From a virus, in the IMG/VR virus record IMGVR_UViG_3300045999_001352, positions 1 to 20,799 of that record: DNA of 20,799 nt. One strand, 5' to 3'. This document shows, piece after piece, positions 208 through 7,225 of this stretch. The position numbers were made by a program, and so were the translations under genes. Below the pieces are notes generated by a model. That model had not been told where the DNA came from, searched no databases, and saw nothing but the letters and a program-made list of their open reading frames with translations. The first letter of the stretch is position 1; each line of letters starts with the position of its first letter.

Positions 208-413
208 ACACGGTAGGCGATGGATCAAACGGCTACCCAATAAGTAGGATGAGGCTATACAAAGAATGGGTTGATCTGACCGACGAGGAAATACTGGCAG
301 ACGATGTGTTGCGCTATCACTTTGCATTAAATGGTGGTGCTGGCCCAATATCTAAAAAGGGTAGGGCAATCATCGCTGCAGTTAATGATAAGTTGCGCGA
401 CAAGAACTCATGA
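204..413 (+). CDS. Small conserved phage protein, paralogue of the preceding gene
   Basis: This 69-residue protein starts at an ATG that overlaps the upstream stop (ATGA) and ends with a TGA that overlaps the downstream start in the same way. It therefore sits in a translationally coupled chain leading into the initiator-like gene. It shares with its upstream neighbour an EWV-x-LTD-(D/E)(D/E)-I segment and a C-terminal RAI-...-KL-(K/R)-(E/D)-KN-(T/S) ending, and differs in a Gly-rich insert (LNGGAGPISKK) before the tail. I know of no function for this family. Position and coupling suggest early or replication-phase expression, which is inference only. Confidence 0.75.
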   Translation: MNTVGDGSNGYPISRMRLYKEWVDLTDEEILADDVLRYHFALNGGAGPISKKGRAIIAAVNDKLRDKNS

Positions 414-1342
414 ATGCACTACCGTCCAATGTGGTGGACTTCAAGCTACCCAAAAAGCCCAAGGTAAAGGAGAAGGAAGCACTGCCAGACCAGCGCAGGA
501 TGACTGTCATGCCCATCAGAGCCATCACAGACAAGCGCATCACCGATGGCATGTTCAGGACATTGGCACTGGTCTGCAGTTACGTCAACAGAGCTGGGAT
601 TACCTGGGTAAGCCAAGCCAGGTTAGCCAAGGACACAGGAACCAGTCGCCAAGCCATCAGCAAGCAGCTGGTCAAGCTCAGAGCTCTAGGCTACATCGAG
701 ACAGTCTCCAAGGCATTCAAAGGCGTAAAGCCTGACACAGTGCGAGTTATCTTCGACCCAACTATTGACGCAGAGACAGCCATCGCAGTAACCAGCTCCA
801 TTGAAGACACCAGGCCACCAGAGATGAAAAGACAACAACAGAAAGAGCTAGACAATACCATCGACATCGAAGGGTTGAAGCGAATCAACGACATGATCAA
901 AGGCGTTGTCAAACCCATGAACCCACCACTAAAGGAATATCAAATGCCTAACAATAGAGATACCATCACAGTCGCCAAGATGAAGAAAGAGATAGCAAAG
1001 CATAAACAAAAGACAACCTCAGGTGCAACCCTAGAAGTTGCACCTACTGCTCAAATAATAGGCAGCCATACGCAACCTTATACGCAACCTCCAGAGGTTG
1101 CACATAACGAGGAAGAACGTAGTATTAGGTTAACCTTAAGTATTATTAATAAAGAATTAAATATAAGTTTAAATAATATTGAGGTTAACCTTATAGGCAA
1201 CCTAGAGTTGACAGATGTCGAGTTGACAATGGCATGTAGGATGTTAGTAGAACGCTATCAATCCGAAGGACTTACCATTCCGACAAGCTCTGAGCAGGTA
1301 ACACATGATCTGCTTGTGATTGCCGTGGATGTCATGAAGTGA
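410..1342 (+). CDS. Winged-helix DNA-binding protein, putative replication initiator
   Basis: This 310-residue protein has a clear winged helix-turn-helix at about residues 45-115. Residues 64-99 read WVSQ-x-LAKDTGTSRQAISKQL, then KLRALGYIE, a classic recognition helix followed by the wing. A basic N-terminus (KLPKKPKVKEK) precedes it, and a polar, probably flexible linker (about 130-235) leads to a C-terminal domain of about 75 residues. This layout, an N-terminal DNA-binding domain, a linker and a C-terminal part, resembles lambda O-type and phage replisome-organiser initiators. The stretch encoding the linker and early C-terminal part carries an origin-like repeat array (1021-1228), which strengthens the initiator reading. 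A transcriptional regulator with a wHTH is the main alternative. The start is fixed by the ATGA overlap with the preceding gene. I see no helicase or primase motif. Confidence 0.7.
   Translation: MNALPSNVVDFKLPKKPKVKEKEALPDQRRMTVMPIRAITDKRITDGMFRTLALVCSYVNRAGITWVSQARLAKDTGTSRQAISKQLVKLRALGYIETVSKAFKGVKPDTVRVIFDPTIDAETAIAVTSSIEDTRPPEMKRQQQKELDNTIDIEGLKRINDMIKGVVKPMNPPLKEYQMPNNRDTITVAKMKKEIAKHKQKTTSGATLEVAPTAQIIGSHTQPYTQPPEVAHNEEERSIRLTLSIINKELNISLNNIEVNLIGNLELTDVELTMACRMLVERYQSEGLTIPTSSEQVTHDLLVIAVDVMK
1021..1101. repeat. Iteron-like cluster of GCAACC/GGTTGC repeats
   Basis: Within the initiator-like gene there is a perfect 9-bp inverted repeat, AGGTGCAAC (1021-1029) and GTTGCACCT (1037-1045), with a 7-nt spacer. 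It is followed by two tandem 12-bp units beginning ATACGCAACCT (1068-1079 and 1080-1091). The second unit forms the left arm of a perfect 8-bp inverted repeat, GCAACCTC (1084-1091) and GAGGTTGC (1094-1101), with a 2-nt centre. A further GCAACCT lies at 1197-1203. The shared core GCAACC therefore recurs five times, on both strands. Such density is not explained by the protein sequence, which here is a low-information linker. I read it as binding sites for the wHTH protein encoded by the same gene. Confidence 0.7.
1127..1228. other. Candidate replication origin: AT-rich unwinding element between palindromes
   Basis: The 12-mer AGGTTAACCTTA occurs at 1127-1138 and again at 1182-1193. Each copy contains the 10-bp perfect palindrome AGGTTAACCT. 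Between them, positions 1137-1180 hold only three G/C bases in 44, by far the most A+T-rich stretch in the region, although the frame stays open. Just downstream GAGTTGACA repeats at 1205-1213 and 1220-1228. Together with the GCAACC cluster upstream, this gives the repeats-plus-unwinding-element plan of lambda-type origins, which also lie inside the initiator gene. That it works as an origin is inference; the repeats and composition are seen directly. Confidence 0.5.
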
Positions 1343-2397: not shown

Positions 2398-3948
2398 GTG
2401 GCAAAAACAAAAGAACAATCAGAGAAAGTGCTGGTGGGTGGGTTGAATCTGGACTTCAGCAAGTCTCCAGTGATCTACGATTTCATCAGGAGCAACGCGT
2501 TTGTGCAGGGGATCATGGGGCCGGTGGGGTCGGGCAAGTCGTATGGCTGCGCAAGCAAGATCTTTATCAAGGCAGTTCAGCAGAAACCCTCACCGATAGA
2601 CAACATCAGGTACAGCCGGTTTGCGGTAGTCAGAAACAGCTACCCAATGCTGAAGACAACGACGATCAAAACCTGGATTGATCTGTTCCCTGAGTCTACA
2701 TTCGGGCCACTGCTCTGGACTCCACCGATTACCCACCACATAAGATTGCCAGCAAGGGGTGACGCTGCAGGCATAGACTGCGAAGTTATATTTCTAGCCC
2801 TAGACCAGCCAAAAGACGTTAGAAAGCTGCTCTCTTTAGAGCTAACAGGTGCCTGGGTGAACGAGGCTAGAGAGCTCCCAAAAGCAGTGATTGATGGGCT
2901 GACACATAGGGTTGGCCGGTATCCAACCAAGCGCGATGGCGGCCCCACCTGGCACGGTATCTGGATGGATACCAACCCAATGGATGACGACCACTGGTGG
3001 CATCGCATGGCAGAGAAGGAGAAAATGACAGGTGTCTATGCCTGGAAGTTCTTTAAACAACCAGGCGGCATTATGGAAGTCGCTGCTGACGATCTGCCAG
3101 ACAATCCAGAAGCCAACGACCATATTTTTTCTGCTAGTAAGTGGTGGAAGGTCAACCCAAAAGCTGAAAACATCAACAACCTACCACCAGGCTACTACCA
3201 GCAAATGCTGCTAGGTAAGAATCTGGACTGGATCAAGTGCTATGCAGGTGGTCTGTACACCTATGTCCAGGAAGGTAGGTCAGTATGGCCAGAATATGAG
3301 GATGGCACCATGTCTGGCGACACAGACATCGACCCTACCGTACCAATTCAGGTCGGTCTTGACTTCGGTTTAACACCCGCTGCTACCATCGGACAGCGCC
3401 TAGCCAATGGTCGCTGGGTCATCCACCATGAGATCGTCACCTTTGATATGGGCTTAGAGCGCTTTGGCCACCAACTGCTAGCCGAGCTCAACCAACTCTA
3501 CCCAAACCACCAAGTAATGATATGGGGCGACCCAGCCGGTATGGCACGCGATGCTATTTATGAAGTGACTGCCTTTGATTACTTGAAAACACTTGGCCTG
3601 CGAGCGCAACCCACTGCCAGCAATGATTTTAAAGTGCGAAGAGAAGCAGCAGCAGCACCCATGCAGCGCTTAATTAACGGCAAACCAGGCTTGATCGTCA
3701 ACCGATCCTGCAAGCTATTGCGCAAATCATTAGCCGGTGGCTATCACTTTAAACGTATTGCCGTCGGTGCCGGTCAAGAACGCTTCAGAGATGCACCCAA
3801 TAAAAATGAACACTCACACATCGGTGACTCATTTGGCTATCTCATGCTGGGCGGTGGCGAATACAACCGCATGACCAGGACTCACCAGCTCGGCGGCAGA
3901 CCATCACCACAAACCAGCGCCAACACAGACTTTGATGTGTTTGCTTAA
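2398..3948 (+). CDS. terL: Terminase large subunit (packaging ATPase/nuclease)
   Basis: This 516-residue protein starts at GTG 2398, supported by GGAGG at 2389-2393. An upstream ATG (2379) lies in another frame. The ATPase domain has a Walker A GPVGSGKS at residues 41-48, a Walker B-like LTGAWVNEARE with candidate catalytic E156, and a coupling-type DTNP at 191-194. The C-terminal RNase H-like nuclease shows three acidic positions in expected contexts: D322 (VGLDFG), D378 (WGDPAG) and D477 (HIGDSFGYL). Length is normal for the family. It pumps DNA into the prohead through the portal and cuts the concatemer. The ATPase and nuclease motifs all look intact. It lies directly before a promoter and the five-gene cassette rather than directly before the portal. 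Confidence 0.95.
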   Translation: MAKTKEQSEKVLVGGLNLDFSKSPVIYDFIRSNAFVQGIMGPVGSGKSYGCASKIFIKAVQQKPSPIDNIRYSRFAVVRNSYPMLKTTTIKTWIDLFPESTFGPLLWTPPITHHIRLPARGDAAGIDCEVIFLALDQPKDVRKLLSLELTGAWVNEARELPKAVIDGLTHRVGRYPTKRDGGPTWHGIWMDTNPMDDDHWWHRMAEKEKMTGVYAWKFFKQPGGIMEVAADDLPDNPEANDHIFSASKWWKVNPKAENINNLPPGYYQQMLLGKNLDWIKCYAGGLYTYVQEGRSVWPEYEDGTMSGDTDIDPTVPIQVGLDFGLTPAATIGQRLANGRWVIHHEIVTFDMGLERFGHQLLAELNQLYPNHQVMIWGDPAGMARDAIYEVTAFDYLKTLGLRAQPTASNDFKVRREAAAAPMQRLINGKPGLIVNRSCKLLRKSLAGGYHFKRIAVGAGQERFRDAPNKNEHSHIGDSFGYLMLGGGEYNRMTRTHQLGGRPSPQTSANTDFDVFA

Positions 3949-3972
3949 TGTAGATGCTGGCAATATGATTGA

Positions 3973-4000
3973 TTGATGTGTCTTTTAAACTCAATAGAAT
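3973..4000 (+). promoter_or_regulatory. Sigma70-like promoter upstream of the small-gene cassette
   Basis: TTGATG (3973-3978), 16 bp, TAGAAT (3995-4000). The -35 matches TTGACA at four of six positions and the -10 matches TATAAT at five of six. It lies in the 86-bp gap after terL, 34 bp before a gene with a strong GGAGGT ribosome site (4025-4030). The promoter ahead of the capsid gene has the same TAGAAT box and the same 22-bp box-to-box phase. Confidence 0.55.
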
Positions 4001-4034
4001 GCAAATAATACAATAACCGCAAACGGAGGTTTAA

Positions 4035-4487
4035 ATGGCTTTTCCTTTAGCATTAGCAATCATAGCTGGGGCAAGCGCTTATTCTGCATACGAAGGAAGT
4101 AGAGCTCGTAGCGATGCAGAAAGAGCCCAAAAGAAAGCACTGCAACAACAAAAGGTTGACGCAGAAGCGATGCGCACAGAAGTAGCAAAGCAAACTGCAG
4201 AATACGCAAAGCAATCTACATCACTGCAACAGCAATCAGATATTGCTCGCCAACAGTTTGACGCTGCACAGCTGCAGTACAAGGAAAACAAAATGGCAAT
4301 GGAGCAGAAAGCCCAAGAAGTGCAAGCTGCTGTGGATGAAGAGCGCCGTAAAGCAGCTGCCTCAGAAGCATCTGCGCTGAAAGCTCGCACCCGCGGTGGC
4401 CGACGCTCACTACTCTCGCAAGAACGGATGACACCAGAGCTCGGTGTTGAGAGCATATCTCTAAGCCCAGGCATGAGACTGCAGTAA
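4035..4487 (+). CDS. Coiled-coil protein of unknown function, N-terminal hydrophobic segment
   Basis: This 150-residue protein has a strong GGAGGT ribosome site at 4025-4030. Residues 2-18 (AFPLALAIIAGASAYSA) form a short hydrophobic segment, possibly a membrane anchor or a small-residue helix. Residues about 25-125 are a long, Ala/Gln/Lys/Glu-rich helix without Gly or Pro, almost certainly coiled coil. The tail is basic and Gly/Arg-rich (RTRGGRRSLLS), followed by a short hydrophilic end. I know similar R/G-R-x-SLL tails from small phage proteins encoded near the portal but cannot name a function. The position between terL and portal suggests a head, connector or packaging accessory. The stop overlaps the next start (TAATG). 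Confidence 0.8.
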   Translation: MAFPLALAIIAGASAYSAYEGSRARSDAERAQKKALQQQKVDAEAMRTEVAKQTAEYAKQSTSLQQQSDIARQQFDAAQLQYKENKMAMEQKAQEVQAAVDEERRKAAASEASALKARTRGGRRSLLSQERMTPELGVESISLSPGMRLQ

Positions 4488-5143
4488 TGGCTACCCAATA
4501 CCAAAAGCGCATGATGACGCGCAAGAGCTCAGACTTAACCAGGTTAGCAGAGCAATTCAAAAAGAATATTGAAGCATCTACCGGTGAATATGAGTCTGCT
4601 TTTTCTGCTTATCAACAGCAAACAGAAGAAGCGCTGGCTCCGTATGAAACTGCGACTAAGCAATACAAAGAAATACAAATGCCAGCATACGAAAGCGCAA
4701 AGGCTGCGTATGAGGAAAAGCTAAAACAATTTAACGAGTCTTTGTCTAATTTCCAAGCAAAAACAAAAATTGATGCTAGTAATGTTGACGTAAGAATAGA
4801 TCCAGTTAATTTTAATCCGTTCCAAATATTTACAGTTGATGGTCAAAAAATTGACACAAGAAAATTACCTTCTGGATATTCTATTGAAAATGCACCAAAA
4901 GGTACTAAGGGTAGATTCTATGATTTGTACAAAGATAATCCAGTGCCTACATTTTCTGAAAAAGCACCATCAGCACCATCAGCACCACAAGCTCCGCAGG
5001 TAGCTGGATTTGATGAGACTAAGTTTGAACAAAAGCGCGGTCAACTTCAACAAGAGTTTCAGCGCGAAGTCGGTGAACGTAAAGGAGCGCGGCTGGCAGT
5101 CGTCGGTCGCAAAGGAGCAAGACCATTGATGCAGGATAAATAA
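4487..5143 (+). CDS. Coiled-coil protein of unknown function with basic C-terminus
   Basis: This 218-residue protein starts on the TAATG overlap with the previous gene. Residues 1-95 are helical and coiled-coil-like (repeated A-x-x-x-Y/E-x-x patterns, for example YESAFSAYQQQTEEALAPYETA). A middle part (about 100-150) looks like a small beta domain (FNPFQIFTVDGQKIDTRKLPSGY). A Pro/Ala/Ser linker (SAPSAPQAPQ) follows, then a short amphipathic helix and a basic tail (ERKGARLAVVGRKGARPLMQ). The plan of coiled coil plus Arg/Gly-rich tail parallels its upstream neighbour, although I see no clear sequence homology. The segment around 4740-4960 is noticeably more A+T-rich than the flanks. Function is unknown; a virion or connector-associated role is guessed from position. 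Confidence 0.8.
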   Translation: MATQYQKRMMTRKSSDLTRLAEQFKKNIEASTGEYESAFSAYQQQTEEALAPYETATKQYKEIQMPAYESAKAAYEEKLKQFNESLSNFQAKTKIDASNVDVRIDPVNFNPFQIFTVDGQKIDTRKLPSGYSIENAPKGTKGRFYDLYKDNPVPTFSEKAPSAPSAPQAPQVAGFDETKFEQKRGQLQQEFQREVGERKGARLAVVGRKGARPLMQDK

Positions 5144-5301
5144 TGGATAAAGTTCATAAAGTAATGCGCGAATACAAAGCCGGCACATTAAAAAGTTCAA
5201 GCGGAGATAAGGTCGCAAGCAGAGATCAAGCTATTGCAATTGCTTTGTCAGAACAGGAAAGATCTAAACGTAAACGCGGATTGATGAAGGAACAAAAATG
5301 A
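5143..5301 (+). CDS. DUF6496-type small basic protein
   Basis: Translating the frame from ATG 5143 (on the TAATG overlap with the upstream stop) gives 52 residues ending at TGA 5299-5301. The core VHKVMREYKAG, TLKSSSGDKV and QAIAIALSE matches, from memory, the small family annotated DUF6496, found in phages and bacteria, whose function is not known to me. The protein is strongly basic, ending SKRKRGLMKEQK, so nucleic-acid binding is conceivable but unproven. It overlaps the next gene by ATGA and belongs to a run of three tiny coupled genes before the portal. Confidence 0.8.
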   Translation: MDKVHKVMREYKAGTLKSSSGDKVASRDQAIAIALSEQERSKRKRGLMKEQK

Positions 5302-5456
5302 AAGAGGTATGGGATAAGCCACGACCAAAAGATTTAGGCAAATCAAAAGAGTTGAGCGGATCTGAAAAGCGTAGCGCTATGCGTAGAGCTCAAAAGGCAG
5401 GCAGGCCCTATCCTAATTTGATCGACAACATGGCAGCAGCGAAAGAGAAAAAATGA
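5298..5456 (+). CDS. Small conserved basic protein of unknown function
   Basis: The ATG at 5298 overlaps the preceding stop (ATGA). The frame encodes 52 residues and closes at TGA 5454-5456, which overlaps the next ATG the same way. The sequence has a KEVWDKPRPKDLGK start, a helical RSAMRRAQKAG centre and an AGRPYPNLIDNMAAAKEKK end. I recognise the RPYPNL-(I/V)-DNMA signature as recurring in short phage and prophage proteins, often next to DUF6496 genes, but no function is known to me. The high Lys/Arg content suggests contact with nucleic acid or with acidic protein surfaces. Confidence 0.75.
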   Translation: MKEVWDKPRPKDLGKSKELSGSEKRSAMRRAQKAGRPYPNLIDNMAAAKEKK

Positions 5457-5632
5457 AAATTGAAATCTCACTTGAGAAAGAACACGAAAAAGAAGATAAG
5501 CCAATGGCTGGTGAACTTAGTCCAGAGCAAAAAGCTGCTATTGCCAAGAAGATTAAAAAGAACATTGCATTAAGTCGCATGGAAAGATCATTGCTCTCTG
5601 GCTATTTACTTGAAGATAAAGAGGAAGATTAA
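5453..5632 (+). CDS. Small charged protein of unknown function
   Basis: This 59-residue frame starts on an ATGA overlap and stops with TAA 5630-5632, immediately abutting the portal ATG at 5633. The protein is very rich in Lys and Glu: an N-terminal EISLEKEHEKEDKP, a helical LSPEQKAAIAKKIKK, then LSRMERSLLSGYLLEDKEED. Gly and Pro are rare, so it is probably all-alpha. The perfect coupling on both sides is the main reason to call it real. No family is recognised. Confidence 0.7.
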   Translation: MKIEISLEKEHEKEDKPMAGELSPEQKAAIAKKIKKNIALSRMERSLLSGYLLEDKEED

Positions 5633-7225
5633 ATGGAATACAAGGTGCCAGTAGGTGGTAAGCGATTAAAGCCAGAGGAGATCCTTAAACGGCAGGATAT
5701 TGCACAGCGTAAAAAAGATGAATTTCAAACGCTGTATCAGGACGCTTATGAATTTGCTTTGCCCCAGCGCCAACTGTATGGCGTATGGGAAGGTGGCGCA
5801 ACAGGCACCAAGAAGATGGCGCGAGTATTTGACTCGACAGCTATCAACTCGACCCAGCGGTTTGCCAATAGACTGCAATCGGTAGTCTTTCCTCCGCAGC
5901 GCAAGTGGTCGCGCTTAGAGCCAGGCGTACAAATACCTGACGATCAAAAGCCAAATGCTCAAGAAGTGCTCGATGCCTACAGTGAAAAAATGTTTGCTGT
6001 ATTGCGTCAGTCTAATTTCGACATTGCTATCGGTGAGTTCTTACTAGACCTGGCAGTCGGTACTGCCTGCATGATGGTGCAGCCTGGTGATGATGTCAGC
6101 CCAATTAACTTCGTGCCAGTGCCATTGTTTTTGGTGGCGTATGAAGAAGGTGCAAACGGCCAAGTAGATAACGTCTACCGCCGTATGCGCTTAAAAGGCG
6201 AATCAATTATCCGTCAATGGCCAGACGCGAAAATACCACCAAACCTACAAAACAAGATCGACCAAAAGCCAACAGACGATATTGAGCTGGTTGAAGCAAC
6301 AATCTATGACCATAAGCGTGGTGACTACTGTTATCACGTTATTTGGAAAGAAGGCAAAGACGAGCTGGTATACAGGCGCAAACCATATTCACCTTGGGTG
6401 ATCTCTCGCTATATGAAGGTGGCCGGCGAGATCTATGGCCGTGGCCCATTGCTGACTGCTTTGCCAGACATTAAGACACTAAACAAAACCATTGAGCTGC
6501 TATTAAAGAATGCTTCGTTAGCAGTAGCAGGTGTTTACACAGCTGCAGATGATGGCGTATTGAATCCCAACACAGTAAAGATTGTGCCTGGTGCCATTAT
6601 CCCTGTTGCACGCAATGGTGGCCCACAAGGCCCAGCACTGCAGCCACTGCCACGCGCTGGTGACTTCAACGTATCACAGCTGGTGATCAATGATCTGCGC
6701 AGTAATATCAAGCGCATATTGTTAGATGAGTCTTTGCCACCAGACAATATGTCTGCCAGGTCTGCAACTGAGATTGTCGAGCGCATGAAGGAGCTCGCAC
6801 AAAACCTTGGCTCGGCGTTTGGTCGCTTGATCAATGAAACAATGATCCCGCTGGTCACAAAGATTCTCGAAGTAATGGATGAGCGCGGCTTGATCATCAT
6901 GCCGTTGCGCGTTAATGGCTTAGAGATCAAGGTAACTCCTGTTGCTCCGCTGGCAATGGCTCAGAACATGGAAGAGGTTAATGCCATCCTGCAATATGCC
7001 CAGCTGATGCAGACGTTTGGTGCCGATGGCCAGCTCGCCCTAAAGAATGATGCTGTGGTTGATTACATTGGCGACAAGCTGGGTGTACCTTCTATTGTGC
7101 GCAATGACGCAACCGAGCGTGCTGTACTGATGGAGGAAGCCCAAGCTCAACAGCAACAGGCAATGGCTATGCAAATGGCAGCTATGCAGCAAGGACAACC
7201 ACCAGCCGAAGGGATGCCCCAATGA
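5633..7225 (+). CDS. Head-tail connector (portal) protein, T7 gp8-like
   Basis: This 530-residue protein is the normal length for the podovirus head-to-tail connecting family. Diagnostic segments include the N-terminal FALPQRQLYG, RVFDSTAINSTQRFANRLQSVVFPPQRKW (about residues 64-92), the central PYSPWVISRYMKVAGEIYGRGP, and the stem region DNMSARSATEIVERMKELAQNLGSAFGRL, which all fit T7-like portals. The C-terminus is an unstructured Gln/Met/Ala tail (from about 500). A dodecamer of this protein forms the vertex through which DNA is packaged and ejected and to which the tail binds. It overlaps the next gene by ATGA (7222-7225). Confidence 0.95.
   Translation: MEYKVPVGGKRLKPEEILKRQDIAQRKKDEFQTLYQDAYEFALPQRQLYGVWEGGATGTKKMARVFDSTAINSTQRFANRLQSVVFPPQRKWSRLEPGVQIPDDQKPNAQEVLDAYSEKMFAVLRQSNFDIAIGEFLLDLAVGTACMMVQPGDDVSPINFVPVPLFLVAYEEGANGQVDNVYRRMRLKGESIIRQWPDAKIPPNLQNKIDQKPTDDIELVEATIYDHKRGDYCYHVIWKEGKDELVYRRKPYSPWVISRYMKVAGEIYGRGPLLTALPDIKTLNKTIELLLKNASLAVAGVYTAADDGVLNPNTVKIVPGAIIPVARNGGPQGPALQPLPRAGDFNVSQLVINDLRSNIKRILLDESLPPDNMSARSATEIVERMKELAQNLGSAFGRLINETMIPLVTKILEVMDERGLIIMPLRVNGLEIKVTPVAPLAMAQNMEEVNAILQYAQLMQTFGADGQLALKNDAVVDYIGDKLGVPSIVRNDATERAVLMEEAQAQQQQAMAMQMAAMQQGQPPAEGMPQ

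Follow-up and report, generated by a model that had tools for sequence, protein, structure and literature searches.

Origins of replication that lie inside the gene of their own initiator are, to our knowledge, known from phage lambda and a few plasmids, in which only a handful of variants occur. Covariation of initiator residues with the iteron sequence is known for Rep of the geminiviruses. In lambda, as also in Stx phages, iterons and an AT-rich tract are located in the middle of the initiator gene O, with the iterons 5' of the AT tract (PMC7466680). In the plasmid initiator pSK41 Rep, the origin boxes lie centrally in the rep gene, the linker encoded by the origin is dispensable and the C-terminal domain is thought to contact the host replisome, and the N-terminal domain of the hybrid pPR9 Rep is an HTH_36 domain (PMC5703833). 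The Methylophilales phage MEP301, an isolate that is discussed below, has been published as a phage without DNA and RNA polymerase (PMC8024684).

The locus described here is part of a 20,799-nt stretch of viral DNA (IMG/VR record IMGVR_UViG_3300045999_001352), hereafter the window. Positions 1014-1203, within an initiator-like gene, hold a repeat array that is conserved beyond coding need, covaries with residues 80 and 85 of the encoded protein and is accompanied by an AT tract. We consider this region the most likely origin of the phage (probability roughly 0.86), at which the winged helix-turn-helix (wHTH) domain of the protein would bind the array, the AT tract would open and the host replisome would be recruited. 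A search of mainly non-subscription literature found no account of the origin of this family or of the residue-to-base code reported below, and as far as that search reaches both this initiator family and its natural two-residue code appear to be undescribed.

The initiator-like gene and its neighborhood

The gene (410-1342, plus strand) encodes a protein of 310 aa composed of a wHTH domain, a disordered linker and a small helical C-terminal domain. In Pfam it matches HTH_36 (PF13730) over residues 43-96 (4e-8, 33.4 bits against a gathering cutoff of 25), and several PHROG replication-initiation families are matched as well, the top one being PHROG 678, "replication initiation O-like" (2e-9); NCBIfam gave no match above cutoff. 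The AlphaFold2 model of the protein (mean pLDDT 71.9, pTM 0.38) shows the wHTH, with its helices and wing, at residues about 37-113, a small, helical C-terminal part and, at residues 202-232, a low-confidence linker that is Q/P-rich and predicted to be disordered. The C-terminal domain is poorly conserved, its alignment being short. The codons of the predicted recognition helix, which contains the covarying residues 80 and 85, span 638-679 on the plus strand (residues 77-90; 80-93 in the AlphaFold2 model). Among the top Foldseek matches of the wHTH in the PDB are plasmid initiator structures (4pt7/4pql/5kbj), although these are weak (E 4.6e-3, none reaching 0.001), and VIA-align Z-scores of 8.2-9.2 for pSK41-type Rep structures are tied by unrelated wHTH proteins.

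Directly 3' of the gene is a non-coding block of about 350 bp (1343-1693), the position and sequence blocks of which are kept across 13 relatives; it precedes SSB-like and small terminase genes and has no Rfam match, and MEP301 has a similar C-rich block after its initiator homolog. A packaging site and a terminator or leader are candidate functions for this block. On the other side, positions 1-413 contain two short neighboring ORFs of 68 and 69 aa without a confident family match, the C-terminal halves of which look alike, so that the pair is possibly a duplicated small early gene.

The repeat array and the AT tract

Five exact GCAACC/GGTTGC cores are present, at 1025, 1072, 1084 and 1197 on the plus strand and at 1096 on the minus strand, and the array further includes a degenerate AAGTTGC at about 1035 and a CAACC at 1014. 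From left to right, the sites are organized as an inverted pair, AGGTGCAAC-N7-GTTGCACCT, with perfect 9-bp arms and a 7-nt spacer (1021-1045), two tandem 12-bp sites, ATACGCAACCT(T/C), starting at 1068 and 1080 on the plus strand (1068-1091), and a second inverted pair, GCAACCT-N4-AGGTTGC, with perfect 7-bp arms and a 4-nt spacer (1084-1101), which has the second tandem site in common and resembles inverted pairs also present in relatives. A solo site, ATAGGCAACCT, lies beyond the AT tract on the plus strand (1193-1203); a downstream site of this kind is common in relatives. The AT tract itself (1137-1180), the proposed unwinding element, contains 3 G/C in 44 bp and occupies an equivalent position in the homologous genes. 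Palindromic copies of AGGTTAACCTTA mark its left (1127-1138) and right (1182-1193) edges; the window has no further copies, both contain a 10-bp palindrome, and the left one, whose role is putative, is not general in the family. The first-pass annotation of the window had listed the five cores, both inverted repeats, the 12-bp tandem and the two AGGTTAACCTTA copies, all of which were recovered within a base of where it had placed them. It had also described a stretch of 44 bp with three G/C between these copies, which is correct for the two 44-mers that begin at 1136 and 1137 (3 G/C each, the lowest GC of all 44-mers in the window) but not for the interval strictly between both 12-mers, which is 43 bp long and has 4 G/C.

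The repetitiveness of the gene exceeds what its protein sequence imposes, with 48 8-mer repeat pairs observed versus 17.9 +/- 5.4 (maximum 32) in 200 synonymous-codon shuffles, none of which reaches 48. The density of CAACC/GGTTG peaks at the array, with 6 per 200 bp versus a window mean of 0.6. Rfam gave no match on the window. The left half of the array consists of codons of linker residues, and the protein would tolerate the repeats because the putative origin DNA encodes a disordered linker.

Conservation of the array among relatives

Five viral-contig scans yielded 301 homologous loci, reduced to 135 by removal of near-duplicates, of which 125 are full-length genes. In 104 of the 125, the linker has more 7-mer repeats than all 60 synonymous shuffles, versus 13 of 125 for the wHTH part, and a set of 44 diverse genes contains 167 copies of CAACCT/AGGTTG in this region, compared with 35.8 +/- 5.3 after synonymous shuffling. 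The sites use all three reading frames and both strands. All 125 genes have their lowest-GC 45-mer in the final third, at 75-79% of gene length (5-95% range; 68-92% over all genes), and in 114 of the 125 it is lower than in all 100 shuffles. Conservation of the repeats beyond the need of the protein, a comparison suggested with the first-pass annotation, is thus borne out, as most of the 125 genes carry their excess repeats at a corresponding position.

In three of four close relatives, the synonymous sites of the array have hardly changed relative to the window. Comparison with L002, L003 and L004 gives one synonymous change in 72 array codons versus 34-36 in the 238 other codons, a deficit with a Fisher p of about 0.001 in the two relatives tested (L002, 34/238; L003, 36/238); for the fourth, L001, the deficit is not significant (3/72 versus 18/238, p 0.43). 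In most relatives the array is not the sole repeat-rich 250-bp window, since tail-fibre-like loci about 20 kb away rank higher. A cumulative GC-skew analysis of five genomes of about 33-34 kb (G001, G003, G009, G010 and G012), read as closed maps with 127 bp of overlap between their ends and classed as linear by IMG/VR, speaks neither for nor against an origin at this place: the raw skew climbs along almost the entire genome, and after detrending three of these genomes have their minimum 1.7-4.7 kb upstream and the other two at a distance of about 22.7 kb. Among the GTDB genomes, the search for prophages with a homolog gave a single weak match, on an Anaerolineales MAG contig.

Covariation of the recognition helix and the iterons

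The iteron core varies between clades, and within one genome the sites have a common core. The base that precedes CAACC follows residue 80: with Q80 it is A in 306 of 319 sites, with R80 it is G in 182 of 211, and with K80 it is T in 66 of 96, the remainder being mostly A. Residue 80 is in fact the best of 199 alignment columns at predicting this base (NMI 0.569, the next column reaching 0.325). Residue 85 is associated with the core itself, which is GACAC in 14/14 genes with N and CAACC in 105/105 genes with K or R. The residue-80 rule is broken most clearly by L066 and L067, which have an R80 helix yet GACAACC/GTCAACC cores (gene nt 600-720); an L034-like group, with K80 and mixed T/A, also departs from it. 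The series is extended by a group (L289-L335) with a more divergent KQQVARAM helix and GACAAC repeats at the same place, in one member of which (L335) the repeats are of the GACATC type. In a BLOSUM62 alignment with a CRP fragment, residues 80 and 85 stand opposite R180 and R185 of CRP, two residues that contact bases.

Some 400 bp separate helix and iterons, which lie within a single gene and are therefore inherited together, a linkage that inflates any association. Linkage alone is nevertheless argued against because the remaining columns of this block have much lower scores. The covariation moreover survives a tree-based test, for which the columns of helix and linker were left out of the tree. 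About 8 independent pairs are concordant and 0 discordant for R versus G (median p 0.008), about 6 and 0 for R/Q versus G/A (median p 0.03), and residue 85 and the CAACC/GACAC core each change 8 times on the tree, all 6 of their independent pairs being concordant (p 0.031). At the level of sequence, the covariation thus lends indirect support to binding of the repeats by the protein. We put at even odds the broader idea that the family is a natural initiator-origin library with a two-position code (position 80: R-G, Q-A, K-T; position 85: K/R-CAACC, N-GACAC), in which a recombinable one-gene cassette would let phages switch replication specificity and so avoid interference with relatives.

Proposed mechanism and alternative explanations

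Protein binding, unwinding, recruitment of the host and origin activity are proposed by analogy with lambda O and pSK41 Rep (PMC7466680, PMC5703833). In this model, the wHTH domain (residues about 37-113) would bind the array of roughly 10-12-bp sites, which in the clade of the window have a consensus near ATAxGCAACCT and occur as inverted pairs and tandem copies, with a single site past the AT tract. Once assembled on these sites, the complex would melt the 44-bp tract, after which the replicative helicase or primase of the host would be recruited by the C-terminal domain. Dependence on the replisome of the host is probable, because the sampled relatives yielded neither a phage polymerase nor DnaB or a loader: DnaB_C was matched in 0/20 relatives, DNA_pol_A and a DnaC/IstB-type ATPase in none of 15 and the lambda-P family loader (PF06992) in 0/15, with a positive lambda control, several of these relatives being possible fragments. 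An origin of this type had been called unusual beside a T7-like virion module. This holds only in part: the portal is indeed T7-like (PF12236), but the sampled relatives are without a Pol A or DnaB match, and MEP301, the nearest isolate, is published as lacking DNA and RNA polymerase alike (PMC8024684). The closest near-complete relative, G001 (L088), has a leftward operon on its minus strand (2848-6001) with RecT-like, RecE/YqaJ-like and serine recombinase genes, and also a RusA-like protein; it is a phage without a recognized polymerase.

Other functions could be imagined for such an array. Repressors also have wHTH folds, and two weak promoter-like matches lie on the minus strand at 1200-1160, as would suit an operator through which the protein controls transcription, either its own or that of a promoter inside the AT tract. 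This is unlikely, as promoter-like matches are at chance (3 found versus 3.4 expected), the sites are 600 bp inside coding sequence, a pronounced AT minimum at a constant position is not required of an operator and the PHROG matches are replication initiators. A role of the array in packaging (pac/cos) or partition, its location in this gene being accidental, seems quite improbable. A small terminase gene is indeed nearby (1963; a weak Terminase_2 match), but the array covaries with the helix of the initiator itself, not with the terminase, and a stronger candidate for packaging is the non-coding block 1343-1693, which is closer to the terminase gene and also retained in MEP301; for partition, a partial scan of the early proteins recognized no partition gene.

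The Q/P-rich, predicted disordered linker raises the further question of whether the repeats could be a mere by-product of a repetitive low-complexity peptide, without a role as DNA. This is very hard to reconcile with repeats that exceed synonymous shuffles, use all three frames and both strands and have core changes tied to helix residues. On the evidence counted against each, the operator, the packaging site and the peptide by-product were rejected as the main reading. The reading as a lambda-like origin inside the initiator gene, already proposed in the first-pass annotation, is supported by the excess repeats, their placement in homologs and the covariation of core and helix.

Comparison with known systems

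The nearest isolate is MEP301, whose gp55 (MW452941) is about 38% identical to the initiator in its wHTH part and whose virion module and gene order up to the small terminase are as in the window. However, gp55 has 201 aa and no evident iteron array or linker, and MEP301 was dropped as an origin reference because its homolog is shorter and without the array. The geminivirus Rep differs by its unrelated fold, its rolling-circle initiation and the location of its iterons outside the gene.

The locus resembles lambda O in its in-gene iterons and AT tract, its DNA-binding N-terminal part and the position of iterons 5' of the AT tract. In contrast to lambda O, which is matched by PF04492 (Phage_rep_O) at 5.7e-36, the initiator described here has no match to this family at E <= 1, and hhalign found no similarity between it and lambda O, the latter represented by a single sequence. 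Lambda iterons are tandem 18-19-bp inverted repeats, whereas the sites here are shorter and mix inverted pairs with a 12-bp tandem, a further site lying past the AT tract; lambda also has a P-type loader, and none was found in 15 relatives. With pSK41 Rep (RepA_N) it has in common an N-terminal domain of the wHTH type, for which the structural match is tied by unrelated wHTH proteins, a putative origin in the middle of the gene, a linker encoded by this DNA and a C-terminal domain that may engage the host replisome, and with pPR9 Rep an HTH_36 N-terminal domain. It differs from pSK41 Rep in having no RepA_N (PF06970) match at E <= 1 and a smaller, poorly conserved C-terminal domain. By analogy, the initiator would work like lambda O and pSK41 Rep, and by domain tests it is a member of neither family.

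The in-gene origin architecture is already known, and what is new here is a member with a natural specificity series. More than 100 natural variants combine differing recognition helices with differing iterons in one gene, so that a joint change in the specificity of initiator and origin can be tested by single residue or base swaps. A function and a replication mode would also be given to an abundant group of uncultured freshwater phages in which no polymerase A or replicative helicase of their own has been seen, and these phages would stand beside lambda and pSK41 as a further case of an initiator that carries its origin within its own gene.
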